From a virus, in IMG/VR virus record IMGVR_UViG_3300036401_000371, positions 1-49,289 of that record: a stretch of 49,289 nucleotides of DNA. One strand, 5' to 3'. Of this stretch, positions 11,201-49,289 are shown one piece after another. The translations under genes and the position numbers were made by a program. Positions within the stretch are counted from its first letter, which is position 1, and each line of letters begins with the position of its first letter. The notes below the pieces were generated by a model. It had not been told where the DNA came from and made no database searches. It worked only from the letters and a program-made list of their open reading frames with translations.

Positions 11201-11323
11201 GCAGAAAAATGCACGGTGTTTATGGAAAAGTGCATGCATCAAGAATTGTACATGCCCGAGCTGAAAGAGTCGGTTGTATTCATTGGGGAAGCGGCCAAGG
11301 GCCGCAGATGGAGCGACACATGA
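8210..11323 (+). CDS. UDG-DNA polymerase I fusion (family A)
   Basis: The replicative polymerase has 1037 residues and three modules. Residues 1-260 are a family 4-type uracil-DNA glycosylase with CKHC (22-25), GEAPGKRETQVGRPF (52-66), C96 and C114 as likely Fe-S ligands, and LHPAH (216-220). Residues 310-470 are a 3'-5' exonuclease with DVETD (321), QNRIYD (377) and YNGRDT (445). Residues 480-1037 are the polymerase with motif A DFSQLELR (736), motif B KRAEYCGIYGG (836) and motif C HDS (986). All catalytic positions seem intact. The ATG at 8210 gives a natural N-terminus and overlaps the preceding stop. UDG-polymerase fusions are known in some phages, but the pairing is uncommon. Confidence 0.92.
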   Translation: MFNDNRDTSRLKLQLLADGADCKHCPLSRHGQPHRPVATELLSKAPLVALVGEAPGKRETQVGRPFIGISGKILDQAIQRGGVARTDFAVLNAIACGPIPSQADGMKQEAMLACRPRLLRELARLQPKVILAVGGYALKSLGATEAGVTAVRGATLKLKPDVIDFLGAERDPAALACSTEVEPCQDASGGGKAKNPTFLRFRSGEPTIPPHFLATLHPAHIARGGDGDAADAPGGDSGPAVDLLFYFFMYDVVKSVRLARGEIQPWTDSLDLFAWRGGLVNPVFDDDDNVVGWDAAPADAMDAAIDHVYRESREVGEFAVDVETDSKDAMTANLTAIAFATIHGGMSATWEAWQSKPTAKARAAELLADRKIAVIIQNRIYDTIVLPRHGMPIGGIVHDTLLQHHAAFPGLPHKLQAIATQFFVTRPWKDEFRRTEKDEGSLILYNGRDTVATARAKPVLEKMIDAHRTAKVYEADRQQFSVATHMRRVGYFVDRVEQKRQSEIQHARLAYMRDSLITDFKSIEEPWRKALARILASTARKKDPESYLDRVQLRYNEIAERERRETDIGLFKPKAHKDVLALFEILKVPILDYTKKGAPKTDKKAMEAAAGRHPLLRKIIHLREAKHLLATYIDGLPILADGRVHPDWSPKITGRWGAGKAQNWPKFVQGWPPEKDANGDFKRRPSGELVTPKENPRRIVTAPTAVEIIRIGVAGVPAIVYLRALQGFGRMLVGADFSQLELRIAAFLARDPFLLGIFRRGEDPHAAFARRAFPSRFPELESLFKERCAALGREIKIKANLTNPQGEKYVEGLDDADRKQLASWAAQWSRLRDLTKRAEYCGIYGGEAKTVYDSIVKDFPEVQLADLEKLVASVNREMAGVVAWRNRQEEWAHAHREIRESILGRVRLFPLGNFNPNVVYNFPIQAMAATLLALAIFRFTALTQPHLLEIDRLYRFSLLDASWVARMRAEGFDKWRAPVDLILNGHDSLLAESDEEDAEKCTVFMEKCMHQELYMPELKESVVFIGEAAKGRRWSDT

Positions 11324-11994
11324 CCTTTGATAAAGATGCCTTCGACAAAATGATCGACGGTTGCGATATCGTCATCAACGGCGACACAGGGAGCTATCAG
11401 ATCGAGGAGTTACGAAAGCTATTTCCGGGACGGAAAATCGGTGTGCGCGGATCGCTGCGCATTCTTCCCGTCGAAGGCCCACGGCCGGACGATTACCAAA
11501 AGCTGGCGTTGCGCACGGAGAAAACGCCCGCTTTCATCGATCCCGCTTGGGCGGGTAGCCCTGAAAACGCGATGCGACTCGCGCGTATTCTCCATGGCTT
11601 GCTCGGATGCATGACGGAGCTGGGCGAAGCCGCGGACATCATCAAGCGCCACCTGATTTACGGCGCGTCGCTCGATTTGACGCACCTGATGGAAGAGGCA
11701 GGCGACAAGCAATGGTATATCGCGTTGATCCTCGACGCGTCCGGTTTCACCATGGAAGCCGCGCAGGCGCGCAACATTGCCAAGCTGCGCGCGCGCTACC
11801 CGGAAGGCTTCACCGAGGAGAAGGCGCTCACGCGGGATCTCGAATTCGAGAAACGCGCGTTGGGCTACGTGGAAGCGGAGCGCGCCGCGTTGGGCGATGA
11901 GTTTTCAATGGGCCTTGCTTGGGAGCATCATCGCCCCGGTGCTGGCGTGCAGTGTCCGACGTGCAACGCGGAACCTGGAAAGGCTTGTACATGA
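11320..11994 (+). CDS. MazG-like NTP pyrophosphohydrolase with zinc tail
   Basis: The product has 224 residues. The central segment RLARILHGLLGCMTELGEAA (about 85) followed by LMEEAGDKQWYIALIL matches the metal-binding E-x2-E...E-x2-D pattern of MazG nucleotide pyrophosphohydrolases. These hydrolyse (d)NTPs or ppGpp-like molecules. The N-terminal 80 residues are a separate small domain. The C-terminus VQCPTCNAEPGKACT has the CP-x-C-x-A-x-PG-x2-C zinc motif seen in phage and actinobacterial proteins. The ATG at 11320 overlaps the polymerase stop; the next gene overlaps in turn. Confidence 0.8.
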   Translation: MTFDKDAFDKMIDGCDIVINGDTGSYQIEELRKLFPGRKIGVRGSLRILPVEGPRPDDYQKLALRTEKTPAFIDPAWAGSPENAMRLARILHGLLGCMTELGEAADIIKRHLIYGASLDLTHLMEEAGDKQWYIALILDASGFTMEAAQARNIAKLRARYPEGFTEEKALTRDLEFEKRALGYVEAERAALGDEFSMGLAWEHHRPGAGVQCPTCNAEPGKACT

Positions 11995-13018: not shown

Positions 13019-13267
13019 ATGAGCAAGTTGGATGATTTGGCGAAGGTGTATCGCGAAAAGATGAAGGTTGCTGCCGCAGCGGCAGAGGACTTCAAGAAAA
13101 CGCGTGAGGAACATGCGAACATTCTTCGTGAAAAAGCAATTGTGTTGGACACTGCGTATCTTGCAGCGCGCAATGCCCAGGAAGACGTTTGGCATGAGGT
13201 GGAAGGCAAAGACGCGCCTGAGTTTGATTTCCTTTTGGTGTCATCTGCACGGCACTTGACAAAATAG
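13019..13267 (+). CDS. Small coiled-coil protein
   Basis: The product has 82 residues, almost wholly helical, with heptad-like spacing (LDDLAKVYREKMKVAAAAAE, FKKTREEHANILREKAIV). It starts two bases after the methyltransferase stop. The -35 of the next promoter lies inside its last codons. Function is unknown. Confidence 0.65.
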   Translation: MSKLDDLAKVYREKMKVAAAAAEDFKKTREEHANILREKAIVLDTAYLAARNAQEDVWHEVEGKDAPEFDFLLVSSARHLTK

Positions 13268-13284
13268 ATCCCGCCGTCTAGTTT
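13256..13284 (+). promoter_or_regulatory. Promoter TTGACA-N17-TAGTTT for a leaderless gene
   Basis: A perfect -35 (13256-13261) and TAGTTT (13279-13284) are 17 bases apart. The expected start site (about 13291-13292) falls at the ATG at 13293, and no ribosome site precedes that ATG. The downstream mRNA is therefore probably leaderless or has a 1-2 base leader. Confidence 0.6.
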
Positions 13285-13292
13285 CGTTATCT

Positions 13293-13880
13293 ATGACCAT
13301 TCACGACGAAGATCCCGGAAAAATGATGGAGCGATCCGATTCGCTCCGCGATGAAGCCTTGGCGCTCGAAAAAGAGGCCATCCGTAAGGCGGCTGGCTTG
13401 GCGAGCGGCAACCTTGCGCATGCGGCGGCAATCCTTGGCCGGTCGCCGGGCGTGCTCGCGCGCGCCATTGAGCAGCGAGGCGGGCGCCACAAAGAGCTGT
13501 GGAAGGCGTTTTCCCACACTCGCGGGCGCCCGCCTCTGAAGCTGGAAGTGATCCAGAAGCGCGCCACGAAGCTGCCCAAGGGCCTCCCGCCGCTCTTGCC
13601 GGCCACGACGAAGGGCAAGGCGAAGGCCCCGGCCAAGGTGGCGAAGCCCGCGCCGAAGGCAGCCAAGGCGGCCGCGGCGCCCCTGGCCAAGCTGACGGAA
13701 GCGCAATGGACAGACGTCATCGAAGCGTGGATCGAAGTCCGCGCCAACGGCGGCAATCAGAAAGAATTCGCGGCCAAGCATGGCGTGGGCGTCTCCACGC
13801 TGCGTGAGCGCACGGCCGCGTATACGGCCGCCATGAAGGCCCCTGCCGCGCCCGCCGTCGCTGACGATCCGGTGATGTAG
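13293..13880 (+). CDS. Two-HTH DNA-binding protein with histone H1-like linker
   Basis: The product has 195 residues. The N-terminal RKAAGLASGNLAHAAAILGR resembles a Fis-type helix-turn-helix. The C-terminal IEVRANGGNQKEFAAKHGVG and VSTLRERTAAYTAAM form a homeodomain-like HTH. Between them (about 75-130) lies a Lys/Ala/Pro-rich linker (KGKAKAPAKVAKPAPKAAKA) like bacterial histone H1 mimics. This bipartite form suggests a nucleoid-type or transcription regulator. Its own leaderless promoter makes it a candidate regulator of phage timing. Confidence 0.75.
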   Translation: MTIHDEDPGKMMERSDSLRDEALALEKEAIRKAAGLASGNLAHAAAILGRSPGVLARAIEQRGGRHKELWKAFSHTRGRPPLKLEVIQKRATKLPKGLPPLLPATTKGKAKAPAKVAKPAPKAAKAAAAPLAKLTEAQWTDVIEAWIEVRANGGNQKEFAAKHGVGVSTLRERTAAYTAAMKAPAAPAVADDPVM

Positions 13881-13881
13881 G

Positions 13882-14079
13882 TTGGCTACCCGGCGAAGAG
13901 GCACGCGGCATCAACATGGGGGTGTCCGCGTGTCTCTTTACTTCCCCGATGGCCTCTTGGAAGAGATCAACCGCGAGGCCGATCGGCTCGATCGCCCGCT
14001 CAGTTGGGTGATCCGCAAGGCGTGGGAGTTGGCCAAGGCGGATGTGGCTCGCATTCCATCGCCCGACGAAAACGAATAA
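13882..14079 (+). CDS. Ribbon-helix-helix protein
   Basis: The product has 65 residues from a TTG start. The segment VRVSLYFPDGLLEEINREAD then LDRPLSWVIRKAWELAK is the beta-helix-helix of CopG/Arc-type DNA-binding proteins. The TTG directly after the upstream TAG is favoured, since a later GTG (13930) would cut the beta strand. It could be a repressor acting on the CGATCG-containing promoters, but this is untested. Confidence 0.7.
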   Translation: MATRRRGTRHQHGGVRVSLYFPDGLLEEINREADRLDRPLSWVIRKAWELAKADVARIPSPDENE

Positions 14080-38760: not shown

Positions 38761-40331
38761 TAGTTCCTCCGCATACCTAGAACAGAGTATATCTCACCGG
38801 ACTTGACTTTTTCCATCGCTTTTGCGTACCGCGGGCCCATGTTGTCGTGCAGGTAGATCAGCGCCTGCGTCATGGCGTCCACGTCGTCATCGTGCCGCGC
38901 GAAGGGGAAGCCGCACAGCTCCTCTATCATTTCCTCGATCCATCCATACGTCAGTTTCGTACCGTCGGGCATTTCAAATTCAGCATCCGCAGCGGGTAGC
39001 ACGACGTCGCGCGCTTCCACGAGGGGGCTCACTGCGTTCGCGCGCGCGACTTTGCCACCCTCAGGATCAACCATGATGATGCCGGGCAGCTTGCCGCGTA
39101 ACACTTGCTCGACGGCGGTACCGTTCGCCTTATCCTCGATCAGCTTCGCGCGCGCCTTTGGCCATCGCTTGGCGAGCGCGAGCAAACACGCGATGGTGCC
39201 CGGCAGCCCCAATTTATCGTGTATGCGATCGATTAAGTAATACTTGCTATCCCAGCCCAACGCCCACACGTGAATCGCCACGTAGTCAGCGCTTTTGGTG
39301 TCTTTGAACGAACAATCCGCCGATATGGCGAGCGCGAGGATCCGCGACGGTAGCGTCTTCCAGCGCTGGGAAAACCACTCGCGCTTGAAGATGTTGCCCT
39401 CGCCGGGGCTGGGCCGCTGTTGGAGTTGGGCTGCCGCAACTTGGCTGCCCATTTCGCGCTCTAGAAATGTAACTGAATCGGTATCGAATCGCGCGGGCAC
39501 AAGTAGCTCACCCTCGACGGTACGCCGATCGCCGCCCCATTTCGTCTTACACGCCCGCTCCGCCTCGAAGCGCATGGGCAAGCAAAGCACTGTCCACGCG
39601 CCTACGTTCTTGTCCTCTTCAAGAATGCGCCCCACGAGATCCAGCTCATGAAGGCGTTGCATAATGATGACGCGCGTGAATTTTTTCGGGTTGTTTTGGC
39701 GGCTGGCCATGGTGCCACGCCACCATTGCCACGTGCGTTCTAGCGCTGCGGCTGCCGTCTCAGGGTCACCGCTCACATCTTTTGGCTTCGTGGGATCGTC
39801 GATCACCTGCCGCTCAGCGTGCCAGCCCGTACCCTTGCCTGCGACCGTGACGCTGACGCGGCGCCCCCCTTTCGACGTGCTGTAGACGCTCTGCGTGGTC
39901 TGATCGTCTTTGCTGTCCGCGATGGTAACGCCTTTGCCCCACCGCTCTTGAAACCACGTGCTGCGAACTAATTTGCGGCAGCGGAGCGCATCACGATGCA
40001 TCAAGTCTTGATCGAACGTGGCAAACATCCACTTCGTCTTTGGCTTGAGGATCCATTCCCACACTGGCCAAAGCACGCTGACGATCGTTGACTTCGTGCA
40101 GCCTGGGGGCACAGCGATGATGAGGCGTGTGCATTCGCCGCGCGTAACCGCTTCCAGGTGCGCGCAGATCTCTTCCATGTGCCACGAGGGCACGAGATCA
40201 TCAGGCTCAACGATGTGCCACGCGAGCTGGACGAATTGCCACAAGCCGCCGCGTTTCACTAACTCGACGTCGAGCGCAATATCGTTATCGATGGCTTTGT
40301 AGGCGGCTGCGTCTGAGGCGAGGAGTTGCAC
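38760..40331 (-). CDS. terL: Terminase large subunit
   Basis: This is the 523-residue packaging ATPase-nuclease. A deviant Walker A, PPGCTKST (75-82), is followed by Walker B QVIDDP (about 175-180). The C-terminal RNase H-like nuclease has ISADCSFKDTKSADYVAI, IEDKANGTA and HDDDVDAMTQAL. GTG at 40331 is the only start possible, since an in-frame stop (that of the upstream gene) lies seven codons before. No clear ribosome site is seen, so expression may rely on read-through reinitiation. Confidence 0.92.
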   Translation of the reverse strand: MQLLASDAAAYKAIDNDIALDVELVKRGGLWQFVQLAWHIVEPDDLVPSWHMEEICAHLEAVTRGECTRLIIAVPPGCTKSTIVSVLWPVWEWILKPKTKWMFATFDQDLMHRDALRCRKLVRSTWFQERWGKGVTIADSKDDQTTQSVYSTSKGGRRVSVTVAGKGTGWHAERQVIDDPTKPKDVSGDPETAAAALERTWQWWRGTMASRQNNPKKFTRVIIMQRLHELDLVGRILEEDKNVGAWTVLCLPMRFEAERACKTKWGGDRRTVEGELLVPARFDTDSVTFLEREMGSQVAAAQLQQRPSPGEGNIFKREWFSQRWKTLPSRILALAISADCSFKDTKSADYVAIHVWALGWDSKYYLIDRIHDKLGLPGTIACLLALAKRWPKARAKLIEDKANGTAVEQVLRGKLPGIIMVDPEGGKVARANAVSPLVEARDVVLPAADAEFEMPDGTKLTYGWIEEMIEELCGFPFARHDDDVDAMTQALIYLHDNMGPRYAKAMEKVKSGEIYSVLGMRRN

Positions 40332-40349
40332 GGCGAAGGTGGGGGCTAC

Positions 40350-40916
40350 TTAGAAGATGTCAGCGCCGGCTTCCCCTTCATCGTCCTTTTCTTCGTCGTC
40401 GCTCTCATCGAAGGCTTCATGCTCCTCTTCAGTGAGCATCGACTCCTCCAACGTGGACGGATCGTTGCTGCCCGCGCCCGGCAGCGTACCCGGATGCGAG
40501 CGCACAGCGTCGTCGCTCGGGGGCGCCTGCGCGGTGGGGTAGTTGGCGCCATCTGCCTCGGACTCATCCAAAAGCATTTCGTCGCTGTCTTCCTTGCCGA
40601 AATTCATTTCTTCGCCTCCGTCATCTTTTTCACCGATGGGCAACCGTTCTTCAGTCGCCAGCTCGTAATCATCGCCCTCGCCGTTGCCTGCCTTCGCGCC
40701 GCCCGACGTGTACGGCGTACCGTCGTTATTTCCGCTGCGTCCGAACATTTCACACGCAGCGTCGAGCACAGTGGGGTTCATAGCGTCGTGGGGGGTGTAG
40801 CCTTCGGATTGCATCCAATTCGCGAGCGCGAATGGATTCGAGATCTCGCTGTGGCCTTTCATGGCCTCAACGGTGCCTTCCCAACCGGGTGGTGCAGAGT
40901 CGATTCGCTCGGCCAT
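40350..40916 (-). CDS. Acidic protein upstream of terL
   Basis: The product has 188 residues. ISNPFALANWMQSEGYTPHD near residue 30 is a short motif seen in small phage head-region proteins. The rest is strongly acidic (EESMLTEEEHEAFDESDDEE). GAGGAG lies ten bases before ATG 40916. It may be a terminase accessory or a scaffold-like factor. It lies in the same reading frame as terL. Confidence 0.6.
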   Translation of the reverse strand: MAERIDSAPPGWEGTVEAMKGHSEISNPFALANWMQSEGYTPHDAMNPTVLDAACEMFGRSGNNDGTPYTSGGAKAGNGEGDDYELATEERLPIGEKDDGGEEMNFGKEDSDEMLLDESEADGANYPTAQAPPSDDAVRSHPGTLPGAGSNDPSTLEESMLTEEEHEAFDESDDEEKDDEGEAGADIF

Positions 40917-40961
40917 GTTTGTGCGCTCCTCATACAAGCGCAGCATAACCGATCGAGATTG

Positions 40962-41267
40962 TCAAGAATTGGGCGTACTGCGGGGATGAAAACCGACGAA
41001 GGTGGGGATCGAGTTGCGCCGATTCTCCAGAAACATACGAAACACTTCGAGCACGATGGGGTCAAGCGTGGCCTTGGCCGGCGCCAAAGGATCGCTCATG
41101 ATGCCCGCCGCGATGAGCAACAGCGACAGCACAACGACGCCCTGCTTTTCCCCTCTGAGCGCAGCATCAAGCGGCGCCTCCAATTTCGTGATCACCTCTT
41201 GCATTTGCTCCTGTGCCATCTGATAAAGCGACACAGCCTTCGCCCGCAACCGCTCCGCATCAGTCAT
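40962..41267 (-). CDS. Small membrane protein
   Basis: The product has 101 residues. The N-terminal half is a helix (AKAVSLYQMAQEQMQEVITK). One hydrophobic segment follows (GVVVLSLLLIAAGIM, about 44-58). It starts in an ATGA overlap. A TTGACA followed by a CGATCG lies across its stop codon. Function is unknown. Confidence 0.6.
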   Translation of the reverse strand: MTDAERLRAKAVSLYQMAQEQMQEVITKLEAPLDAALRGEKQGVVVLSLLLIAAGIMSDPLAPAKATLDPIVLEVFRMFLENRRNSIPTFVGFHPRSTPNS

Positions 41268-41704
41268 CGCTTCGCCCCTTTGTTGATTTGCTTCCGCAAT
41301 CGGAAGTAGCCCCGATCGAACGCTTCCCCTATTTGATCCTGCGTGGGCTTGCGGGCCTTGCCGTGTTTCGCAACCTTGATGCGCTCGCGCGTGTCGGCCA
41401 CGAGGCCATTGTGTAGTGTCCGAATAGCGCAGACGACGTATCCAGGGCCGCCGCCCACGGGAACAATGTCCGCCTGAGGCCACGGTGGCGGAAGGCGTAA
41501 AGCGCCATCCGCGGAAACAGCTTTGAGCACGTCAAGAATACCCGCACGGCGGCAGATCTCAGTTGCCGCCGCACGGAGCCTTTTATAGCTCGGATCATTG
41601 GGATTCCTCGCGCCGTCGAGCGCCTTGCCCAACTCAGCGATGGCGAAGTGATCTACCACCGCCATCAACTCAGGATCCTTTTCGTAATCGTCGTCGGTCG
41701 GCAC
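41264..41704 (-). CDS. Hypothetical protein
   Basis: The product has 146 residues with GTG start. The N-terminal 60 residues are helical (YKRLRAAATEICRRAGILDV). The C-terminus is basic (KVAKHGKARKPTQDQIGEA, RLRKQINKGAKR). A DNA-binding or small-terminase role is possible but not shown. It is coupled to the next gene by ATGA. Confidence 0.6.
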   Translation of the reverse strand: MPTDDDYEKDPELMAVVDHFAIAELGKALDGARNPNDPSYKRLRAAATEICRRAGILDVLKAVSADGALRLPPPWPQADIVPVGGGPGYVVCAIRTLHNGLVADTRERIKVAKHGKARKPTQDQIGEAFDRGYFRLRKQINKGAKR

Positions 41705-41707
41705 AGC

Positions 41708-42043
41708 TCAGCAACCCCCGTCAGCGTAGATGCAACTCGACGCGGGCAGGCAGTCGCGAAACTTGTGCGCCGGCCCGTCCGAGTAGCAATACCAGCCGAT
41801 CGGGCACACGAAGTCAGCGCCGCACAGCGTGCCGCAAACGCCGTCATCGCCGCACACGAGCCCCAAGGGGCAACCGCCACCATCGGCGCACCACGACGGC
41901 GGGCGCACAGCCTTGGCCGGGACGGCGCCCGTGACCGACGCAGGCGCCACGGTCGCACCCGACCAAGTATCCTTGGTCCGCGCATCATTGACGCCACAGC
42001 CCACTACGATGGAAAGCAAAGCGAACGTGAGTAGCATTTTCAT
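41708..42043 (-). CDS. Cysteine-rich lipoprotein
   Basis: The product has 111 residues. A lipoprotein signal (MKMLLTFALLSIVVGC) ends at lipobox VVG-C. The mature part holds about 14 cysteines in C-x5-CG type spacing (CPLGLVCGDDGVCGTLC, VCPIGWYC), probably disulphide-bonded outside the cytoplasm. The pattern recalls secreted proteins of Myxococcota. It might alter the host surface, for example against superinfection. Confidence 0.75.
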   Translation of the reverse strand: MKMLLTFALLSIVVGCGVNDARTKDTWSGATVAPASVTGAVPAKAVRPPSWCADGGGCPLGLVCGDDGVCGTLCGADFVCPIGWYCYSDGPAHKFRDCLPASSCIYADGGC

Positions 42044-42657
42044 GTGATGATCTCCTCTTTTTTCGCCATGAGTGGCTCAATAGCATTGAGTAGCGGACGA
42101 TCGTTGCCGTTGCGCATCCATTGGATCGCGGCGCGCTCCAACTCGCGCCACAGCGGCACGCGCTCGGCGAGGGCGCGGCCGGCGTCGCCTGCAATGGCGA
42201 GTCGAAGCGACTTGTAATGGTCGGCGAACGACGCATCCCTATGCATCAGATCGCGCGCCTCTCTTGACGTTAGGGCGTTGACAATTCCCGTAGCTGATGC
42301 GCGCAGCGCCGCCGCCTCGGCCTGCGTGCGGTTATGCGCCTCACGTTCGGCTTCAAGCTGAGAGTTGGCGATGCGCAATTCTTCGCGTAGGACGCGCTTG
42401 CCTTCTTCGCCGCTGGCCTGCGTGCGGGCGTGGGCGGCACGTTCTGTTTCGAATGAAGAATTTGCTAGCGTGGTGGCGGCTCGTGATTCATTCAACGCAC
42501 GTAGCAATTCGGTGTTACGCGCCTCCAGCTGCGCGATACGTTCGCTTTCGGCGACGACGATCGGCGGAATGCCGTTGAACAGCAACCCGCAATTGCATCG
42601 GGAGCATTTCGCCACCTGGTGCTTGTGCCCACATGAAGCGCAATCAACGTGAGCCAT
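42040..42657 (-). CDS. Zinc-ribbon plus coiled-coil protein
   Basis: The product has 205 residues. Residues 1-25 (MAHVDCASCGHKHQVAKCSR and CNCG) form a four-cysteine zinc ribbon. Residues about 40-125 are a long coiled coil (RIAQLEARNTELLRALNESR and repeated E-A-E-R-E-A). A helical C-terminal unit follows. The stop overlaps the lipoprotein start. Function is unknown. Confidence 0.7.
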   Translation of the reverse strand: MAHVDCASCGHKHQVAKCSRCNCGLLFNGIPPIVVAESERIAQLEARNTELLRALNESRAATTLANSSFETERAAHARTQASGEEGKRVLREELRIANSQLEAEREAHNRTQAEAAALRASATGIVNALTSREARDLMHRDASFADHYKSLRLAIAGDAGRALAERVPLWRELERAAIQWMRNGNDRPLLNAIEPLMAKKEEIIT

Positions 42658-42825
42658 CTACTTCCCGCCCTTCCGCGCGTGCGCCTCGGCGGCGCGTTCG
42701 GCAGCTTCACGCGTGGCGAACCGCCGCCCAATGCCATTGGCGCCGCGCAGAATCGTCCCGTTGATGGTCGCGAGCCACGGGCGCTTTCTGTTCTCGCTAG
42801 GCTGGAATGATGCGGCAGTTTTCAC
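42658..42825 (-). CDS. Small basic protein, AP2/Arm-like
   Basis: The product has 55 residues from GTG (GTGA overlap with the upstream stop). RKRPWLATINGTILRGANGI and RRFATREAAERAAEAHARK recall the three-strand plus helix form of small AP2 or integrase arm domains (W-x-A-x-I ... F-x-T-x-E-A-A). The stop TAG is followed directly by the next ATG. Confidence 0.6.
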   Translation of the reverse strand: MKTAASFQPSENRKRPWLATINGTILRGANGIGRRFATREAAERAAEAHARKGGK

Positions 42826-43310
42826 TTCGCACCATCCTCGCCGCCGGCCCGCCGCGCGTCGACCGCGTAAATTTCATCGCGAACGGTCGCAGCAATGCGT
42901 TTGACGTTCTCATCTCCTGGGGTATCGGGGTGCAGCACGTACGCGCTGAGTCGCGCAGCCTCAAGCTTGGCGTTCTCCGAGCACAGCGCCTTCACTTCGT
43001 CTGCAATCGTGGTGCGCTTCCACTCCTCGCACTCCGCCCTCACCCGGCTCACTTCCGCCAGCGCGGCGTCGCGTTCGTCCGTAACACGACCCACAGCCAT
43101 GATGGCAGCGGCAAGCGTTACGCCGTTGGCGTCTCTCATTTGCTTATGTTCGTCCCGTTCCTTCTGCATCGCCGCCAAGTCCTCTTGCAGCTTTTCGTTC
43201 TGCTTCCCCGCGGCCAACAGCTCAGCTTGTGCCTTCTTGGCGCACTCTTTCCAGAATGCAGCATCGCGCGAAGCTTCATTCAACGCGTCTGCGAATGCCG
43301 ATGTCCCCAT
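42822..43310 (-). CDS. Coiled-coil protein
   Basis: The product has 162 residues. Long heptad-rich helices cover residues 15-125 (ECAKKAQAELLAAGKQNEKL, QEDLAAMQKERDEHKQMRDA). The C-terminus is a short separate unit. A promoter and GGGAGG precede ATG 43310, so this gene may start its own transcript within the minus arm. Function is unknown. Confidence 0.7.
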   Translation of the reverse strand: MGTSAFADALNEASRDAAFWKECAKKAQAELLAAGKQNEKLQEDLAAMQKERDEHKQMRDANGVTLAAAIMAVGRVTDERDAALAEVSRVRAECEEWKRTTIADEVKALCSENAKLEAARLSAYVLHPDTPGDENVKRIAATVRDEIYAVDARRAGGEDGAK

Positions 43311-43334
43311 GTGGATCGCCTCCCGAGATCTACG

Positions 43335-43364
43335 AAACTACCACGCGCCGCTTAATTTCGTCAA
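43335..43364 (-). promoter_or_regulatory. Promoter TTGACG-N18-TAGTTT
   Basis: On the minus strand, TTGACG (43364 to 43359) and TAGTTT (43340 to 43335) are 18 bases apart. Both boxes and the following CGTA closely match the plus-strand promoter at 13256 (TTGACA ... TAGTTTCGTT). The start would be near 43328, 18 bases before an SD-led ATG at 43310. Confidence 0.6.
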
Positions 43365-43523
43365 GAAGTCACACGAGCGCGCGCGCGCCGCCACTTGGCA
43401 CTCTTGTTGGCGGCGGGCGATGTCGTACTGTGCCGATGTGCCGATAGCAAACCGCGCGCTCCCATCGCCCACATCGGAGACATACGCGCCCGCGCCAAAT
43501 ACAAATGCCATCAACGGTTTCAT
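43338..43523 (-). CDS. Short Ala-rich protein, possibly exported
   Basis: The product has 61 residues. The N-terminus (MKPLMAFVFGAGAYVSD) is hydrophobic but lacks a strong signal form. The rest (SAQYDIARRQQECQVAARAR, SCDFLTKLSG) looks protein-like with two cysteines. No good ribosome site is seen, and its 3' end is used as promoter for the next gene, so this call is uncertain. Confidence 0.4.
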   Translation of the reverse strand: MKPLMAFVFGAGAYVSDVGDGSARFAIGTSAQYDIARRQQECQVAARARSCDFLTKLSGAW

Positions 43524-43562
43524 GCGCGCCGTAGCCAATCGCAAATAGATGCGCGCAGGTGC

Positions 43563-43847
43563 TCACGGCGTGTAGGTACAAGAGGTAACGCCACCGCACG
43601 TGATGCAATCCGTGCGGAATGTCTTACCGTCGCTGTCGGTGCCCTCAGCGATCATCACCTTGCAGCACGTCTCATTGACGCACGCAGCGTGGTAACTTTC
43701 TTGAATGCGCGCGAACGTATCCACGAGCGGGCAGCAGTCGCTCACCCACTGACACGGGGCGCCTTGCTCGCTACACACGGGTGCAGGCGCGGCCGTCGGG
43801 CCACCGCAGCCAACAATCAACAATGGCAAAACAATCAAAGCGCGCAT
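43563..43847 (-). CDS. Cysteine-rich lipoprotein
   Basis: The product has 94 residues. The signal MRALIVLPLLIVGC ends in lipobox IVG-C. The mature chain has about 11 further cysteines (VCSEQGAPCQWVSDCCP, CVNETCCKVM, CITCGGVTSC), so a disulphide-rich fold outside the inner membrane is likely. It is similar in style, but not in sequence, to the lipoprotein at 41708-42043. Confidence 0.75.
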   Translation of the reverse strand: MRALIVLPLLIVGCGGPTAAPAPVCSEQGAPCQWVSDCCPLVDTFARIQESYHAACVNETCCKVMIAEGTDSDGKTFRTDCITCGGVTSCTYTP

Positions 43848-43850
43848 TTT

Positions 43851-44090
43851 TCAGCCGCCCCCATTCAACAGCGCCAGTTTGATTCGCAGCGTCTCACGCA
43901 CGTTGGCGAGCGCCAACACGCTTTGCCCCCTCGCCGCTTGCCGCTCAATTTCTGCCTGCACAGTGCGCAGCGCGAAGGCGTACGCGTCGATCATCCCACC
44001 CTTGTACGAAAGCGCCTTGATCTTCTCCTCGCGCTGTAGCTCCGTCTCAGCCTGCGCAATCGCCGCTTTCATCTTCTCGCGTGGGCTCAT
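43851..44090 (-). CDS. Small helical protein
   Basis: The product has 79 residues, nearly all helix (REKMKAAIAQAETELQREEK, RTVQAEIERQAARGQSVLAL). The ATG overlaps the upstream stop (ATGA). The middle KGGMIDAYAFALRTV suggests a small helical hairpin. Function is unknown. Confidence 0.65.
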   Translation of the reverse strand: MSPREKMKAAIAQAETELQREEKIKALSYKGGMIDAYAFALRTVQAEIERQAARGQSVLALANVRETLRIKLALLNGGG

Positions 44091-44293
44091 TTGCCATCCC
44101 CCTTGCGGTCGCGGATGCGACTCGCGACGCTCATCAGCCAATCGCCGTTGCTGCGCCGAATACGCACCAACACGTATTGCGACACGCGGATTTCGATCAC
44201 CTCACCGTTGGGTGGCGCCACGTCGCGGCGCGGCTGCACATTGATCGCCTTGGGCGGCATAGTCTTACCCGACACGTCGACGCCCTCGATCAT
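44087..44293 (-). CDS. Small protein, unknown
   Basis: The product has 68 residues, with a beta-rich core (GEVIEIRVSQYVLVRIRRSN, GDWLMSVASRI) and basic C-terminus (RIRDRKGDGK). Start and stop are both coupled by ATGA overlaps. It may be a small nucleic acid-binding fold; no family is recognised. Confidence 0.6.
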   Translation of the reverse strand: MIEGVDVSGKTMPPKAINVQPRRDVAPPNGEVIEIRVSQYVLVRIRRSNGDWLMSVASRIRDRKGDGK

Positions 44294-44502
44294 GGGTACA
44301 CCTGTAGGTTGCGAATGCAAATGCTCACCTCTTCGTCAATGGGCAGCGGCACAGCTTCGCACGCCTCAGCCGCGAGCATTTCGATATCGAAGGCGTGGAC
44401 GGTGCAGAGCGCGATGGAAAAGCTGCCATCGCCCACGCCCAGCTCGCGCCGCTTGCCTTCCTTGCGCTCTCCGCTCATGCGGCAGATCCAACACTCTTCC
44501 AT
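44290..44502 (-). CDS. Small protein with CxxC
   Basis: The product has 70 residues if started at ATG 44502, which has GGGGGTGAGG ahead; ATG 44520 would add six residues. The N-terminus EECWICRMSGERKEG has one CxxC pair; more cysteines occur later (ALCTV, AEACEA, ICIRN). A covarying hairpin lies just before the start. Function is unknown. Confidence 0.6.
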   Translation of the reverse strand: MEECWICRMSGERKEGKRRELGVGDGSFSIALCTVHAFDIEMLAAEACEAVPLPIDEEVSICIRNLQVYP

Positions 44503-44520
44503 TGGCCTCACCCCCTCCAT

Positions 44521-44546
44521 AGCGCGCCCGTCGCACCGGGCGCGCT
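44521..44546 (-). ncRNA. Hairpin element A after a stop codon
   Basis: A perfect 10-bp stem (AGCGCGCCCG/CGGGCGCGCT) with loop GTGCGA on the minus strand lies between the TAG at 44557 and the next ATG. A second copy at 45699 keeps loop and flank but changes base pairs together. See the matching element and the finding. Confidence 0.55.
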
Positions 44547-44554
44547 GTGCAGGG

Positions 44555-44725
44555 CTAGCTTTCGGCCTGGCATTTCGGGCACATCGCGGTGCCGTCGTTT
44601 CGCTTTAAGCCACACCTGTGCTCACAGCACTTCGCCTTACATGCGCGGCACGTCCATCTAGGGTGGCAATTCTTCCGAAAGCACTTCTTTCGCAGGCGCA
44701 TCGTCGTGCCCTCCGTCGTGCTCAT
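44555..44725 (-). CDS. Small cysteine-rich zinc protein
   Basis: The product has 56 residues, beginning with MSTTEGTTM, the same nine residues (and identical 27 bases) as the gene at 45879-46139. The body CRACKAKCCEHRCGLKR and MCPKCQAES contains nine cysteines and is probably a double zinc finger. It starts two bases after the upstream stop. Confidence 0.65.
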   Translation of the reverse strand: MSTTEGTTMRLRKKCFRKNCHPRWTCRACKAKCCEHRCGLKRNDGTAMCPKCQAES

Positions 44726-44727
44726 GG

Positions 44728-44892
44728 TTACTTCCCCCACGTCGAGTTGCGAAACAGGATCACCGTCGCGCCCTCGACGATGTAGTCCGGCTCAAACTGG
44801 GCTTCGACGGCCAACAGCGCGAGCGCCTTGCGCTCAGTCGCCATCAGGCTGGGCGCCTCATTCGTGTTCACCTTGCCTGCCGTCGTGCTCAT
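44728..44892 (-). CDS. Small leaderless-gene product
   Basis: The product has 54 residues (MSTTAGKVNTNEAPSLMATE, then RKALALLAVEAQFEPDYIVE). The ATG lies six bases after a -10 box, with no ribosome site, so translation probably begins at the 5' end of the mRNA. The first 13 bases (ATGAGCACGACGG) match two other genes nearby. Function is unknown. Confidence 0.65.
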   Translation of the reverse strand: MSTTAGKVNTNEAPSLMATERKALALLAVEAQFEPDYIVEGATVILFRNSTWGK

Positions 44893-44898
44893 GTTGTA

Positions 44899-44927
44899 AA
44901 TCTAATCGGACCGATCGATTTCGTCAA
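44899..44927 (-). promoter_or_regulatory. Promoter with internal operator, TTGACG-N17-TAGATT
   Basis: On the minus strand, TTGACG (44927 to 44922) and TAGATT (44904 to 44899) are 17 bases apart. The spacer holds AAATCGATCGG, beginning inside the -35 edge, and overlaps a small palindrome ATCGGACCGAT. A protein bound there would block polymerase. The start site falls at the ATG at 44892. Confidence 0.65.
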
Positions 44928-44949
44928 TAGGAAAAAAGCACGGTACCGA

Positions 44950-45321
44950 TTATTTTTCGTCGTCGCCACTCGCCAGCGCTCTCCGACGCTGTGCATTACG
45001 AATGACATTCAGGGCTTGCAGCTCATCGTTGCTGAGCTGTTCCAACGGCGGCAGCCCCGCTCCCGCGTGCCCGCCAACGCGCTTCTCTGTCACCTCCGTG
45101 CGCTGCACGGGGATACCCAGCGTGTATGCAAGCGCCACTTTCTGAGCCGCGAGCTGCGTTTGCTCATCGATCCCGTACTGCGCCAACGCCACAAGCGAAC
45201 GCCAAACGCCCTCAGCGTCGATCAGCATCTTCGCGCGGAGGCGCCCAAGGCGCTCTTGGAATTCCTCTTCGCTGATCGAGTCGAGGCCCGGATCTTCAAA
45301 TTGCAACACTTTGCCGCTCAT
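44950..45321 (-). CDS. Candidate terminase small subunit
   Basis: The product has 123 residues. QERLGRLRAKMLIDAEGVWR, SLVALAQYGIDEQTQLAAQK and VALAYTLGIPVQRTEVTEKR follow the form of small terminase proteins (helical N-terminus, then A-A-x-K-x-L-x4-G-x-P-x-Q-R). LEQLSNDELQALNVIRNAQR closes it. It lies far from terL, so the call is tentative. TAGAATCGATCGC just before the ATG may be a -10 box with very short leader. Confidence 0.5.
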   Translation of the reverse strand: MSGKVLQFEDPGLDSISEEEFQERLGRLRAKMLIDAEGVWRSLVALAQYGIDEQTQLAAQKVALAYTLGIPVQRTEVTEKRVGGHAGAGLPPLEQLSNDELQALNVIRNAQRRRALASGDDEK

Positions 45322-45426
45322 GCGATCGATTCTACAGCGTTTTGAGGGACGCTGCTTGACAGAAAATGATCGCCGTGCGAGGCTGTGAATCTGATAGGGC
45401 TTTCCCCTGAGCCCTCGCCTCCCCCG

Positions 45427-45467
45427 GCCCCCTAGCGTCTCCCCAGCGCTAGGGGGCGTTTTCTTTC
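45427..45467 (+). terminator. Intrinsic terminator on the plus strand
   Basis: GCCCCCTAGCG, nine-base loop, CGCTAGGGGGC form a perfect 11-bp stem followed by GTTTTCTTTC. The T-rich tail is on the plus strand, although neighbouring genes are on the minus strand. A smaller stem (AGGGCT/AGCCCT, 45396-45415) and a perfect TTGACA (45356-45361) lie upstream, so a short plus-strand RNA is possible. The stop of the minus gene lies inside the stem. Confidence 0.6.
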
Positions 45468-45673
45468 TGGCCGCATGCGATGACAAGATACGCATCGCGT
45501 CGCGCTTTATGCGCGCGATCCAAATCAGGCGGGCCGCCCCACCCGCCCCCGAGCGAATTTGCTCCTGGAATACGAAACGAGTGGCAAGCCTTGCCACGGC
45601 GCGCGCCGCACTCAGGGCACGCGATCGAACGCTTTTGTTCTTCGGTAACTTTCACTTTGTTCGCCATCACCAT
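45449..45673 (-). CDS. Small zinc-finger protein (CPxC type)
   Basis: The product has 74 residues. RSIACPECGARRGKACHSF and AHKARRDAYL form the C-P-x-C-x-A-x4-C...H-x3-R pattern, matching the C-terminal tail of the MazG-like protein at 11320. Two starts are possible, ATG 45673 and ATG 45667, both after GAGGAC. It is probably a nucleic acid-binding zinc unit. Confidence 0.65.
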   Translation of the reverse strand: MVMANKVKVTEEQKRSIACPECGARRGKACHSFRIPGANSLGGGWGGPPDLDRAHKARRDAYLVIACGQKENAP

Positions 45674-45698
45674 TTGTCCTCGTCATGAAATGCATAAT

Positions 45699-45718
45699 GT
45701 GCCCGTCGCACCGGGCAC
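45699..45718 (-). ncRNA. Hairpin element B after a stop codon
   Basis: A 7-bp stem (GTGCCCG/CGGGCAC) with the same loop (GTGCGA on the minus strand) and the same downstream flank as element A at 44521. The C-G pair of A becomes T-A here, so pairing is kept. It follows the TAG at 45732 and precedes the zinc-finger gene. Confidence 0.5.
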
Positions 45719-45729
45719 GCTGTGCAGAG

Positions 45730-45906
45730 CTAGAGGTGGGCCACTTTATTCAGCGCGTCCGCCACGACATTGGCGTCAAATTCACTATCAAACATCAGTT
45801 TCACTTCGGGACCTTCGACGACCCAACACGCTCCGTGATCCTCCGTTCCGCGGCCGGGCCGGACGACATAATTGGATGTCAGAGAACGTTTCCGTTTTTG
45901 TCGCAT
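45730..45906 (-). CDS. Small protein, unknown
   Basis: The product has 58 residues (MRQKRKRSLTSNYVVRPGRG; HGACWVVEGPEVKLMFDSEF; DANVVADALNKVAHL). It overlaps the upstream gene by 28 bases. The basic start and alpha/beta pattern look genuine; AAGGG lies before the ATG. Its stop is followed by hairpin B. Confidence 0.6.
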   Translation of the reverse strand: MRQKRKRSLTSNYVVRPGRGTEDHGACWVVEGPEVKLMFDSEFDANVVADALNKVAHL

Positions 45907-46139
45907 TCCCAGCCCTTAAGGTTTTCGAAGCCTTCGACGACATTCACGCCTGGGATCTCGTTAGCGAGATCGGAGGCAGTTTCGGCCTGATCGTCGTACA
46001 CCACATCGCCATTACCGAGCACCTCACCCCAGATCACGGCGAAACGAACATTGAAGATGCGGCGGCCTTCCTTCTGCGAAAAAGTCACCGTCGCGGTCTT
46101 GCGAACCTTCGTCATCGTCGTGCCCTCCGTCGTGCTCAT
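45879..46139 (-). CDS. Small leaderless-gene product
   Basis: The product has 86 residues. The first nine, MSTTEGTTM, are encoded by 27 bases identical to those of the gene at 44555-44725. The rest is beta-rich (TATVTFSQKEGRRIFNVRFA, EVLGNGDVVYDD) with an ECDKNGNVL end. The ATG is seven bases after a -10 box with no ribosome site, indicating leaderless translation. Function is unknown. Confidence 0.65.
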   Translation of the reverse strand: MSTTEGTTMTKVRKTATVTFSQKEGRRIFNVRFAVIWGEVLGNGDVVYDDQAETASDLANEIPGVNVVEGFENLKGWECDKNGNVL

Positions 46140-46146
46140 GAAATAC

Positions 46147-46175
46147 ATAATGCACGCTGCCGATCGATTTGTCAA
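46147..46175 (-). promoter_or_regulatory. Promoter with internal operator, TTGACA-N17-CATTAT
   Basis: On the minus strand, TTGACA (46175 to 46170) and CATTAT (46152 to 46147) are 17 bases apart. AAATCGATCGG fills the start of the spacer, as at 44911. The -35 is also flanked by an 11-bp inverted repeat (46155-46165 and 46187-46197), so two operator forms overlap. The start site lies at the ATG at 46139. Confidence 0.65.
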
Positions 46176-46216
46176 ACACGAAAAATGATCGGCAGCGATG
46201 TTTTTCTTAAGCTGCG

Positions 46217-46402
46217 TCACTCCCCACCGCTGTCGCTGTCGTTCCTGTCTGCGGCGGAGCCCCGACACGTAGGCGCTAGAAGGTCCCACGTGCGGCGATT
46301 TGATGCGGGCACCACTACACCGCAGTGGCCACACCTGAGCCACCGCGTAGTTGCGGACGTTCCGCGGCCAACATACGGAAACCATTCATGAGTTGACTCC
46401 AA
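46217..46402 (-). CDS. Small CxxC protein with TTG start
   Basis: The product has 61 residues (MESTHEWFPYVGRGTSATTR; WLRCGHCGVVVPASNRRTWD). AGGAG five bases before TTG 46402 supports the start. HEWF plus CGHC form a likely zinc site. It is the first gene after the AT-rich segment and has its own promoter. Function is unknown. Confidence 0.55.
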   Translation of the reverse strand: MESTHEWFPYVGRGTSATTRWLRCGHCGVVVPASNRRTWDLLAPTCRGSAADRNDSDSGGE

Positions 46403-46437
46403 TTCAGCTCCTGATTTGGTAATTACCTGCAGTGGGA

Positions 46438-46466
46438 CATATACTTACACGCAGGTATGATTTCAA
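46438..46466 (-). promoter_or_regulatory. Promoter TTGAAA-N17-TATATG
   Basis: On the minus strand, TTGAAA (46466 to 46461) and TATATG (46443 to 46438) are 17 bases apart, five and four of six matches. The start would lie about 29 bases before TTG 46402. It would restart transcription after the AT-rich segment. Confidence 0.5.
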
Positions 46467-46567
46467 GTACTTAGCTAATTTCATATTACCTAACCTATTG
46501 ATCAACCTGCGTGACCTGGGGGATCTGGGGGTGTTTTGTTCTCTACCCCTTGATTCACCATGTTACT

Positions 46568-46654
46568 CCTACATGTAGTTACTCAATAATATCCACTCAG
46601 TATCCGCCGCCCCTTAGATACTGAGTGGATATCATTAGAGACACACATGTAGGA
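46568..46654. repeat. Nested inverted repeats (potential cruciform)
   Basis: The inner arms ATATCCACTCAGTATC (46589-46604) and GATACTGAGTGGATAT (46617-46632) are perfect over 16 bases with a 12-base spacer, and pair further outward with one mismatch. The outer arms TCCTACATGT (46568-46577) and ACATGTAGGA (46645-46654) are also perfect. The structure lacks a T-run, so it is not a plain terminator. Confidence 0.8.
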
Positions 46655-46743
46655 CAAATAATATTACCCAACCCCCCAAGGCAAAATAGGCGCAGATCGC
46701 GCAGGTCTGGGGGGTACTTCGCATACTTAGCTAATTTGTAAAA

Positions 46744-46760
46744 AATTTGTCTGACAAATT
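46744..46760. promoter_or_regulatory. 17-bp palindrome, operator-like
   Basis: AATTTGTC-T-GACAAATT is a perfect dyad. It contains TTGTC/GACAA halves similar to repressor sites. It lies about 85 bases after the primase stop. No protein can be matched to it from sequence. Confidence 0.45.
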
Positions 46761-46844
46761 GGATTCGGCGGGCCAACGATTTCAACCACTTACAAACCAA
46801 TTTCAAATTCCATCGACTGCGCGTAAGGAAAGGTAGGCAAACCA

Positions 46845-49133
46845 TCAAACTAGGTCGTAGCGCCACTGTTTTTTAACATTTTCTCTAATGATTAAGCCAT
46901 AATAAGGCGATTCTTTGCCCTCCACGACGTGGACCCTGTTCTCGCGCAGTCGACGGCCGAAGGTGGAATTTGCAATTGCTCGCCTGCCCGCCTCTTCGCA
47001 CCATTTCTTAAAAAATGGGTAGATCTCCCGCATCGGCGTGCGCTCGCAATCGTCGATCACGCAGCACTCTTCCAGGAAGCTCGCCACGCTATCCACCTCC
47101 ACGCGCCACGTCCGCAACAGGGTGTGGTGCGACGCAGGTAGGGTGAAGGCCCCGCGGGCTAGCAGACGAGACGCGCCAGCGACTGCCCAAGCGGCGATGC
47201 CCGCCATTTCGGAGGCTACCAACGCCTCTTTGAGTGTGTCATCGCGCATCGGGTGCCCCGCGGGGAAAGTCCTGTTCCACTCCACGATGAGGAACCGGCG
47301 CCAAAAGGCGTTGGTGTGGTCTGCCGTGCCCGGTAGGCGGTTGCAGGCGAAGAGGTGACCGGCGATGGGGGCATGCTGGAAGGGCCGCCCAGCGGGGTTG
47401 CGCGCATCCATTTCATCGCCCGAGATCACCGCTTTGAAGCTATCGCCCGACACAATCTCTGCCTCGGGCAGCTCAGACACCACGTTGAGGCGCACACCCG
47501 CCAGCGCGGCTTTATAATATTCCTTGCCCCAGTCCTGAGGCTTGATGCTCTGCCGCTGCTCTTTTGGAAATAGCTCCGATGCCACGTGTGTGAAGACGCT
47601 TTTTCCATTTTCGCCCATCTGCCCATAGAGCACGAGAGCGCGCTGATAGCGGGGAGCAATTCCAATTAGGCAGGCGCCTAGAAACTCTTGCAACAGATCG
47701 ATCTTGTCTGCCGCATCTTCATCCCCCTCGAAGCAGGCTGCGAGATAGGCCCGCCATCGGTCGCACTTCGCATCCGGGGCGTACGCATGTGGCAACCCCA
47801 GGTTCAAGCGATTCTCCGCATCGTGGGGCACGAACGCAGCCCCATTCGGCGTCGCCATCAAGACGCCGTTGGTGAACGCCACGCCTGGGGGCGCCTCACC
47901 AAAGAAGTGGGTGTCACCGCTCAGCGTCTTTGCCGATGCGATGACGCTGTAAATACTCGCATGGTTGAGTTTTAGCGATTTCTTCCCCACCCGTTGCCCA
48001 GCGTACCGTGCAACGTGGCGGTACAGCTCACTCTCGTCGTAGCTCACCCACAGCCCCGTCGCGGTATCGTAGCGCCACAGCTCATCTTGCGTGCCCACGA
48101 TGGCCTCTTCGTTGACGCCCGCAAGGTCTGTCAAGAGGCGCTGCGCTAGCTCGATATCGTCGCCGCGAACGAACGGCGCACCGTCCGAGGCCCAGCCGCC
48201 CACCTTGTCTTTCAGCTCGGCCCAGCGATTTACATTGCCGCCGCATGAGTCGTGCCAGCAACCCGCCCAAATGCCTCCGCGCGACTGCACGCGAATCATC
48301 ATTTTGTCGACGTGGGTGGGGTTGAATACGCAGCGCTTCAGACGGAACGTGACGTCATTGATCTGCGTGTGCGGTATCTCGCGCACCGTCAGCCAAAAGC
48401 CAATTCGCTTGGCCGATGCCACGGCCGAATCAGTAGGAGCTTCGCGAGGGGCAGACGACGACAGCGCAGGCTGTGAAACCAAGGCAGCGGGTAGGGGATG
48501 GGCGGCTAAAAGTTGTTCATAGGTGTATTTCCGCTCGGGGTGCGCTTCAAGCAACGTGACGCGTTCGGGGGCTGCCCGTCGACGTTTCTTGCACTTTGCG
48601 CAGCTCTCATCAGGGCAGGGCCCGTGCATGTTCCACGTGCCCGGCAAGCGCATCACACGGTCAAGATTCACCATGCTCTTGTCGGTACCGTAGAACAGCG
48701 CGAGGTGGCGCTGTATATCGCTCCATTTGTCGATTGATTGCCCCTCAGCGAGTAGCCAGTAATAATGCCGGTTACGGCTGTTTTCGGAGCTGGCCACTAC
48801 GATCGACGGTGGTAGGCGCGGAATGGGCGGCAACGGACTCGTGCCGTCATCATCGATGAAGCAGGCGCGCACACCTGTGATCGCATGCTTGCCGCGCCTG
48901 CCCGAGTTGACTTGCAGGTAAACCGCGCGCTGCGCTGCATTCAACTTGCCGATGATGTCGGTGAGCTGTGGCAAGCTCCCGATATGCACACGGTTGCACT
49001 CTTTTCGCTTTTTCGCTGTGTCGTCGATGAATTGCAATACGAGTGTGGAAGCCTGCGATCCTGTGAGCGCAGTGATGAAGCGCTGCGCTTGCCGGAAGTC
49101 AAACGGATACTGCGGCAACATTGGCGCTAGCAT
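46845..49133 (-). CDS. Primase-SF3 helicase (D5/RepB-primase type)
   Basis: This 762-residue replication initiator has several units. The N-terminal primase-polymerase-like domain has RACFIDDDG (D94-D96), SIVVASSENSRNRHYYWLL (H123) and LDRVMRLPGTWN. A zinc-like block CVFNPTH...GCWHDSCGG follows at about 268-299. The D5_N and superfamily 3 helicase region has Walker A GQMGENGKS (504-512), LNVVSELPEAE and LFACNRLPGT. The C-terminal winged helix begins with IYPFFKKWCEEAGRRAI. It opens the minus arm, divergent from the plus arm. GGGGAATCA precedes the ATG. Confidence 0.9.
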   Translation of the reverse strand: MLAPMLPQYPFDFRQAQRFITALTGSQASTLVLQFIDDTAKKRKECNRVHIGSLPQLTDIIGKLNAAQRAVYLQVNSGRRGKHAITGVRACFIDDDGTSPLPPIPRLPPSIVVASSENSRNRHYYWLLAEGQSIDKWSDIQRHLALFYGTDKSMVNLDRVMRLPGTWNMHGPCPDESCAKCKKRRRAAPERVTLLEAHPERKYTYEQLLAAHPLPAALVSQPALSSSAPREAPTDSAVASAKRIGFWLTVREIPHTQINDVTFRLKRCVFNPTHVDKMMIRVQSRGGIWAGCWHDSCGGNVNRWAELKDKVGGWASDGAPFVRGDDIELAQRLLTDLAGVNEEAIVGTQDELWRYDTATGLWVSYDESELYRHVARYAGQRVGKKSLKLNHASIYSVIASAKTLSGDTHFFGEAPPGVAFTNGVLMATPNGAAFVPHDAENRLNLGLPHAYAPDAKCDRWRAYLAACFEGDEDAADKIDLLQEFLGACLIGIAPRYQRALVLYGQMGENGKSVFTHVASELFPKEQRQSIKPQDWGKEYYKAALAGVRLNVVSELPEAEIVSGDSFKAVISGDEMDARNPAGRPFQHAPIAGHLFACNRLPGTADHTNAFWRRFLIVEWNRTFPAGHPMRDDTLKEALVASEMAGIAAWAVAGASRLLARGAFTLPASHHTLLRTWRVEVDSVASFLEECCVIDDCERTPMREIYPFFKKWCEEAGRRAIANSTFGRRLRENRVHVVEGKESPYYGLIIRENVKKQWRYDLV

Positions 49134-49194
49134 TGATTCCCCATGGTATCCTCTTCTACTGCCACAGCCTTACGGTGCGCAATAACAAAACACA

Positions 49195-49205
49195 CCGATC
49201 GATTT
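49195..49205 (-). promoter_or_regulatory. Shared element AAATCGATCGG near the primase start
   Basis: The same 11 bases occur in the promoters at 44911-44921 and 46160-46170. By analogy, a -35-like TGTAAA and -10-like TGTTAT (18 bases apart) would lie around it and point to the primase gene, but both boxes are weak. It also lies within the terminal repeat, close to the early plus-strand promoter, so one regulator could act on both arms. Confidence 0.5.
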
Positions 49206-49289
49206 TTTACATGCCCGGTCGCGGACTTAGCGTATTTTGCAAGCGATCGATTCTAAAAGGATTTGACACATACGGCGAGCGGGGAGCAT
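49196..49289. repeat. Terminal direct repeat, right copy
   Basis: This matches bases 1-94 except T49212 for C17. It joins the upstream region of the primase gene to the early promoter of the plus arm, showing that the two arms diverge from one short control region of roughly 180 bp in the circular form. Confidence 0.9.

Follow-up and report, generated by a model that had tools for sequence, protein, structure and literature searches.

The SAS and ESAS repeats of cluster K mycobacteriophages (PMC12699233; PMC3203893) are the nearest known parallel to the phage module described here. SAS is a 13-bp consensus, GGGATAGGAGCCC, found immediately 5′ of start codons, and ESAS consists of imperfect 17-bp inverted repeats separated by a variable spacer that is mostly 4-13 bp long (PMC3203893); both are still without an established function. 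In cluster A mycobacteriophages, the operators or stoperators are a repeated phage site whose presumed reader is a single phage regulator (PMC9283540; PMC6550527). As for translation, leaderless genes make up a mean of 15.8% in the 8 of 33 delta-proteobacterial genomes that have them, with TANNNT near the -10 (PMC3160421), and Escherichia coli messages exist that have a 5′-terminal AUG as well as a ribosome site (PMC4965119). Here we describe two phage promoters, A and B, that look alike, carry paired dyads and are predicted to give messages that start at or next to an AUG, which together suggest that one regulator probably switches a swappable set of small genes. With SAS and ESAS this locus has in common that short repeats mark where several small non-structural genes, themselves exchangeable, begin, that the start repeat contains a ribosome-site motif, and that a subset of genes has imperfect inverted repeats just 5′ of it.

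Both promoters are encoded in a 49,289-nt stretch of DNA (hereafter the window) that constitutes an entire virus record, the two ends of which (1-94 and 49196-49289) share a 94-nt overlap that contains a single mismatch, as would be seen in a circular or terminally redundant genome. The gene content is that of a tailed phage: the minus arm carries genes for terminase, portal, tape measure and amidase, and the plus arm those for helicase, UDG-PolA, thymidylate kinase, a MazG-like protein and methyltransferase; no integrase was detected among the scanned proteins, which were a subset of the genes. The UDG-PolA gene (8117-11323, plus strand) is a 1068-aa frame in which a uracil-DNA glycosylase domain precedes 3′-5′ exonuclease and DNA polymerase A domains. 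Positions 40000-49289 had no near match among deposited phages, and a comparison with Rfam returned no match. The relatives used were G1 and G2 (loci L004 and L005), L034 and G3 (locus L006), with genes in these relatives called by a simple codon-score script. The primase of the window is 89% identical to those of G1 and G2 and 48% identical to that of G3, and the terminase of L034 is 71% identical. With 99.96% identity across 15.8 kb, G1 and G2 were counted as one lineage. Searches with the primase, TerL, the TerS-like gene and the HTH protein found the A/B locus in the G1/G2 lineage only, which with the window makes two independent lineages in all. In bacterial genomes the primase had weak matches only (31-34% identity), including one to a Myxococcales MAG, and no close prophage was found. 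A strong hairpin element is present in two copies (44513-44554 and 45693-45742; 82% over 50 nt), the first of which (-33.5 kcal/mol, z -6.1) overlaps the start region of gene 44290-44520 and has a version that is kept in G2. Between the primase gene and promoter B there is a 38-nt inverted repeat (46567-46654; 79% complementary, arms 12 nt apart) in a region that is partly conserved in G2.

Table 1 Positions of predicted promoter and operator elements, start cassettes, small genes and candidate regulators in the window
Feature	Position	Strand	Remarks
-35 of promoter A, TTGACG	44922-44927	minus	
-10 of promoter A, TAGATT	44899-44904	minus	identical in G2
-35 of promoter B, TTGACA	46170-46175	minus	
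-10 of promoter B, CATTAT	46147-46152	minus	TAGATT in G2
O1 of A, AAAAATAATCGG ta CCGTGCTTTTTT	44932-44957	minus	G2 orthologue 11578-11603
O2 of A, GAAATCGATCGG t CCGATTAGATTT	44898-44922	minus	G2 orthologue 11544-11569
O1 of B, GAAAAACATCGC tg CCGATCATTTTT	46181-46206	minus	top other dyad with the A-trained model
O2 of B, CAAATCGATCGG ca GCGTGCATTATG	46146-46171	minus	includes 11-mer and -10
Small gene behind A, 54 aa (MSTTAGKV...)	44728-44892	minus	ATG 6 nt past -10; G2 orthologue 72% identical
Small gene behind B, 86 aa from first ATG	45879-46139	minus	
Start cassette, ATGAGCACGACGGAGGGCACGACGATG	46113-46139	minus	27 nt, at promoter B
Second exact copy of the 27-nt cassette	44699-44725	minus	next gene behind A; preceded by GGGGGAAG
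TTGACA with CTCGATCGG	40949-40965	minus	conserved promoter; L034 without box
Promoter TTGACG-18-TAGTTT with diverged box AAATTAAGCGG	43335-43364	minus	
11-mer 5′ of primase gene	49182-49207	minus	G2-conserved stretch; single good half-site
Weak dyad in O2 register, AAAATAGATCCC g CCGTCTAGTTTC	13261-13286	plus	regulator operon promoter
Candidate 1, HTH_8 (Fis-type) protein, 195 aa	13293-13880	plus	
Candidate 2, RHH protein, putative CdbA homologue	13882-14079	plus	
Candidate 3, 65-aa protein	7131-7328	plus	weak match to late transcriptional activator family, E 8e-4

The first-pass annotation had proposed two minus-strand promoters with TTGAC(G/A), a 17-nt spacing and an ATG six to seven bases past the -10. 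Both are as it described: promoter A reads TTGACG-17-TAGATT-6 nt-ATG (ATG at 44892) and promoter B reads TTGACA-17-CATTAT-7 nt-ATG (ATG at 46139), and the elements that they share exceed chance. A sigma-70 scan of the region found 8 promoters when 4.3 were expected, which is unconvincing by itself, so the case for the promoters is made by their common elements and the conservation of these. An 11-mer, AAATCGATCGG, had been placed within the 17-base spacer of both; this is correct for A, but at B the 11-mer overlaps the final base of the -35, such that its phase relative to the -35 differs by 1 nt between the two. The distance from -35 to -10 stays at 17 even though the position of the box with respect to the -35 varies by one base, both between A and B and between lineages.

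At A, no ribosome site precedes the ATG and the start region, TAGATTTACAACATGAGCACGA, is identical in G2, and the promoter is therefore most simply read as leaderless, a reading that its anatomy supports well. Behind promoter A of G2 stands a different gene (MSTMQTETV...), and its stop shares bases with the ATGA of the gene that is orthologous to the window gene; what sets the two arrangements apart is this extra gene, which in G2 is flanked by two ATGAGCACGA repeats, and TAGATT-6-ATG is kept although the downstream gene is not the same. Promoter and first start codon appear to act as a unit, and relatives have exchanged the small genes that follow it. The gene behind B has no relative in G1-G3.

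At B, a 27-nt cassette holds the first ATG, GGAGGG (46123-46128) and, 24 nt 3′ of the first, a second in-frame ATG (46113-46115), with GGAGGG 7 nt ahead of this second start. The cassette is found exactly in G2 too and recurs ahead of unrelated small genes, and a diverged G2 copy retains GGAGG and both starts while three amino-acid-changing codons lie between or after them. A ribosome site, which had been said to be absent, is indeed missing before the first ATG of each gene but is present, as GGAGGG, before the second ATG of the B frame. The accompanying proposal of leaderless mRNAs agrees with the anatomy at A, whereas B also carries an internal start led by a ribosome site, and could be read both ways, from the 5′ AUG and from the second AUG. 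It is also possible that translation at B starts at the second AUG, in which case the stretch with the first AUG would be a short 5′ leader containing a ribosome site, and B would functionally not be leaderless. The placement of GGAGGG favours this explanation, as do the retention of GGAGG in the diverged G2 copy despite its three amino-acid changes and the precedent of the E. coli messages (PMC4965119). However, the first start (AUG or GTG) is in frame in every copy of the cassette and, at two junctions in G2, it shares bases with the stop codon of the gene before it, which is the arrangement of a coupled start. We regard initiation at the second AUG as a serious contender, a little short of an even chance.

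The window has three exact copies of the 11-mer, each on its minus strand (44911-44921, 46160-46170 and 49195-49205), and allowing up to two mismatches gave 38 matches, compared with 18.3 ± 3.9 in shuffled sequences (38 was reached in 0 of 100). The 11-mer was rejected as a complete operator; it is one half-site of a 26-bp dyad, approximately AAAAAYRATCGG-NN-CCGATYRTTTTT, with an architecture of 12+1-2+12 bp. Each promoter has two such dyads: O1, just 5′ of the -35, and O2, which spans the -35 to the -10 and at both A and B includes the 11-mer and the -10. The first half-site models were built from left boxes, with those of A O2 and B O2 among the inputs, whose own scores are hence partly circular. 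These models retrieved the right halves at A and B, as well as extra boxes 5′ of the -35. The window has four strong dyads, all of them at A and B, and five positions scored above 20 (0.05 expected from shuffles), the fifth being an alternative register of 44898-44922. Because the left boxes of A O2 and B O2 had fed the first model, we retrained on A alone. The best other dyad for the A-trained model was O1 of B, both in the window (26.2; 150 shuffle maxima had a mean of 15.4 and a highest value of 25.1) and in G2 (33.4). Conversely, a model trained on B ranked both A dyads next in the window (27.4 and 22.6). O2 of B was outside the eight best positions of the A-trained model and is therefore the weakest of the four. 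In a bare palindrome ranking the dyads were not exceptional by symmetry alone, so the evidence for them is that one half-site recurs, and does so in a fixed layout.

That arrangement is close to constant. The centres of O1 and O2 lie 52.5 and 18 bp upstream of the A of the ATG at promoter A and 54.5 and 19.5 bp upstream at promoter B; the corresponding distances in G2 are 52.5 and 18.5 bp (A) and 51.5 and 17.5 bp (B), and the centre-to-centre spacing is 34-35 bp in all four promoter copies. The dyads are absent in G3. An operator common to A and B, as had been suggested, is supported as a predicted site by the held-out dyad search and by conservation in G1/G2. Two patterns used to search viral contigs were rejected: beyond G1/G2, TTGACNAAATCGATCGG had three matches that lacked promoter anatomy and were apparently intragenic, and a pattern running from O2 to the ATG had 3 matches that lacked promoter anatomy and any detectable similarity to the phages described here.

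The case for a regulon of four sites, as first envisaged, is weaker. At 40950 and 43361 the box is absent from L034 though the promoters are conserved, and the copy ahead of the primase gene lacks a convincing second half. The promoter with the third TTGACA, at 40950-40965, is indeed conserved, but a ribosome site (GAGGAG) precedes its gene, and L034 retains the -35 and the downstream part of this promoter without CGATCGG; the site is probably not an operator. The box of the promoter at 43335-43364 is AAATTAAGCGG in the window and AAATCGATCGG in G2, and neither is present in L034. Before the primase gene the 11-mer is exact, as reported, but no TTGAC adjoins it and the gene is preceded by the purine-rich stretches AGAGG and GGGG, which places this copy outside an A/B-type leaderless promoter. 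At 45319-45366, a TerS-like gene (PHROG match, E 0.017) begins 7 nt past a TAGAAT with no clear -35, and about 40 nt to the 5′ side there is, in reversed orientation, TTGACAGAAAATGATCGC, which resembles the operator half-site and is largely kept in G2.

The sequence itself shows the dyads at a fixed spacing, the elements of both promoters, their distances to the ATG and the exchange of genes. From them we infer protein binding, a sign of regulation, a transcription start and a likely source of the regulator. We propose that A and B are sigma-70-type host promoters under paired dyads that are bound by a dimeric regulator, most likely phage-encoded; taken as a whole, we consider this explanation modestly probable. 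On O2, the regulator would cover the -35/-10 interval and the -10 and, because O2 includes the -10, should exclude RNA polymerase and so repress transcription. O1, just 5′ of the -35 and at a fixed 34-35 bp from O2, would probably aid cooperative binding. Without the regulator, or once it has been released, transcription is predicted to start on or beside the A of the first AUG, which would yield a leaderless message from A and, from B, a message with a 5′ AUG plus an in-frame second AUG led by a ribosome site. Different small genes would be swapped behind the promoter and first start codon, acting as one module.

A site just upstream of the -35 is a position used by activators, and O1 is found there at a fixed spacing. 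The dyads could accordingly bind an activator or a dual regulator, with O1 (at about -52) activating and O2 giving feedback repression, and the imperfect -10 of B, CATTAT, is in keeping with such a role. However, the overlap of O2 with the -10 fits repression better, and the -35 hexamers of A and B, both close to consensus, would need no help; we think activation unlikely. We give little credence to the proposal that A and B arose by recent copying of one promoter segment and are used by host polymerase only, with the shared boxes reflecting common descent and no regulator involved. Although A and B share 72% identity over 46-nt segments in direct orientation and the start cassette has likewise been copied, copying of a whole segment does not account for the half-site that is common to O1 and O2 within each promoter, and the dyads and their spacing are kept between the window and G1/G2 despite changes in other bases. 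That O1 is the terminator of the upstream gene rather than an operator, as its overlap with the stop codon of that gene (44950-45321 at A) and its terminal T run (at A, and also at B in G2) might indicate, is very improbable, given that O1 is predicted to form hairpins of little stability (-3.6 to -6.8 kcal/mol, z -0.06 to -1.9) next to the strong terminator-like hairpin at 45427-45457 inside the small-gene region (-26.2 kcal/mol, z -5.1), and that O2, with the same half-site, sits 5′ of the start, where it is unable to terminate.

If a dimeric regulator reads the paired dyads, there are three candidates for it. As all three are present in G2 and none in the dyad-less G3, presence or absence cannot separate them. 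A regulator among the HTH and RHH proteins, as the first-pass annotation suggested, is possible, and our best guess is a product of operon 13293-14079. The predicted promoter of this operon has a -35 (TTGACA, 13256-13261), a -10 (TAGTTT, 13279-13284) and an ATG 8 nt past the -10. The A-trained score of its dyad is 17.8 in the window, which is not significant alone, and 21.8 in G2, where it is the best after the A and B sites. We treat autoregulation of the operon as a lead rather than a finding.

Over 46 residues, the RHH protein has a match (E 1.4e-10) to Myxococcus xanthus CdbA, a c-di-GMP receptor and nucleoid protein in which K8, S10, R27 and R30 are needed for c-di-GMP binding (PMC7156744); these residues align to R, S, R and R in the phage protein (3/4 identical). 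CdbA homologues have been reported in Myxococcales only (PMC7156744), which supports a Myxococcota host. Relatives of the RHH protein were found in 56 of 141 genomes in the phylum of a Myxococcales MAG, and no match was found among 50,697 deposited phage records. The host is probably a member of the Myxococcota and the virus a phage of myxobacteria; in this phylum, few phages have been characterised, and the module gives an uncultured phage group a testable regulatory code. The motif of CdbA is a GC-rich direct repeat (PMC7156744), unlike the dyad, and this counts against the RHH protein as the dyad reader. That the phage would use host c-di-GMP to time its leaderless accessory gene set is a speculation to which we attach hardly any probability.

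Compared with SAS and ESAS, the module differs in the sequences that define them. The SAS 13-mer was not found upstream of the A and B starts, and the cassette here contains the start itself; the ESAS repeats are 17 bp long with a spacer of mostly 4-13 bp, whereas the dyads described here have two 12-bp halves with 1-2 bp between them. The sequences are unrelated, and here the dyads are paired, overlap a recognisable -35 and -10, and precede two genes only. Since the defining sequences of SAS and ESAS are not found at A and B, the module may work alike but is not a member. Cluster A stoperator sites and the dyads both overlap promoter elements; however, stoperators are asymmetric, numerous, scattered across the genome and stop elongation, whereas we find four symmetric sites at two promoters. 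The general plan of a phage promoter-operator regulon, in which the same dyad recurs at several promoters and overlaps their elements, is found at A and B. The anatomy of leaderless genes, with a -10 about 6-7 nt before the start and no ribosome site, is found at A, where it is conserved, while B has it for its first ATG alone. In messages that combine a 5′ AUG with a ribosome site, and in the leaderless lambda cI message (PMC4965119; PMC3160421), the AUG is at the expected transcription start, as it is here. In contrast to those messages, the starts at this locus are predicted from sequence and belong to a repeated, exchangeable module, and at B the two starts are in one frame, which would make B a naturally occurring example of a 5′ AUG that shares its reading frame with an internal start led by a ribosome site.
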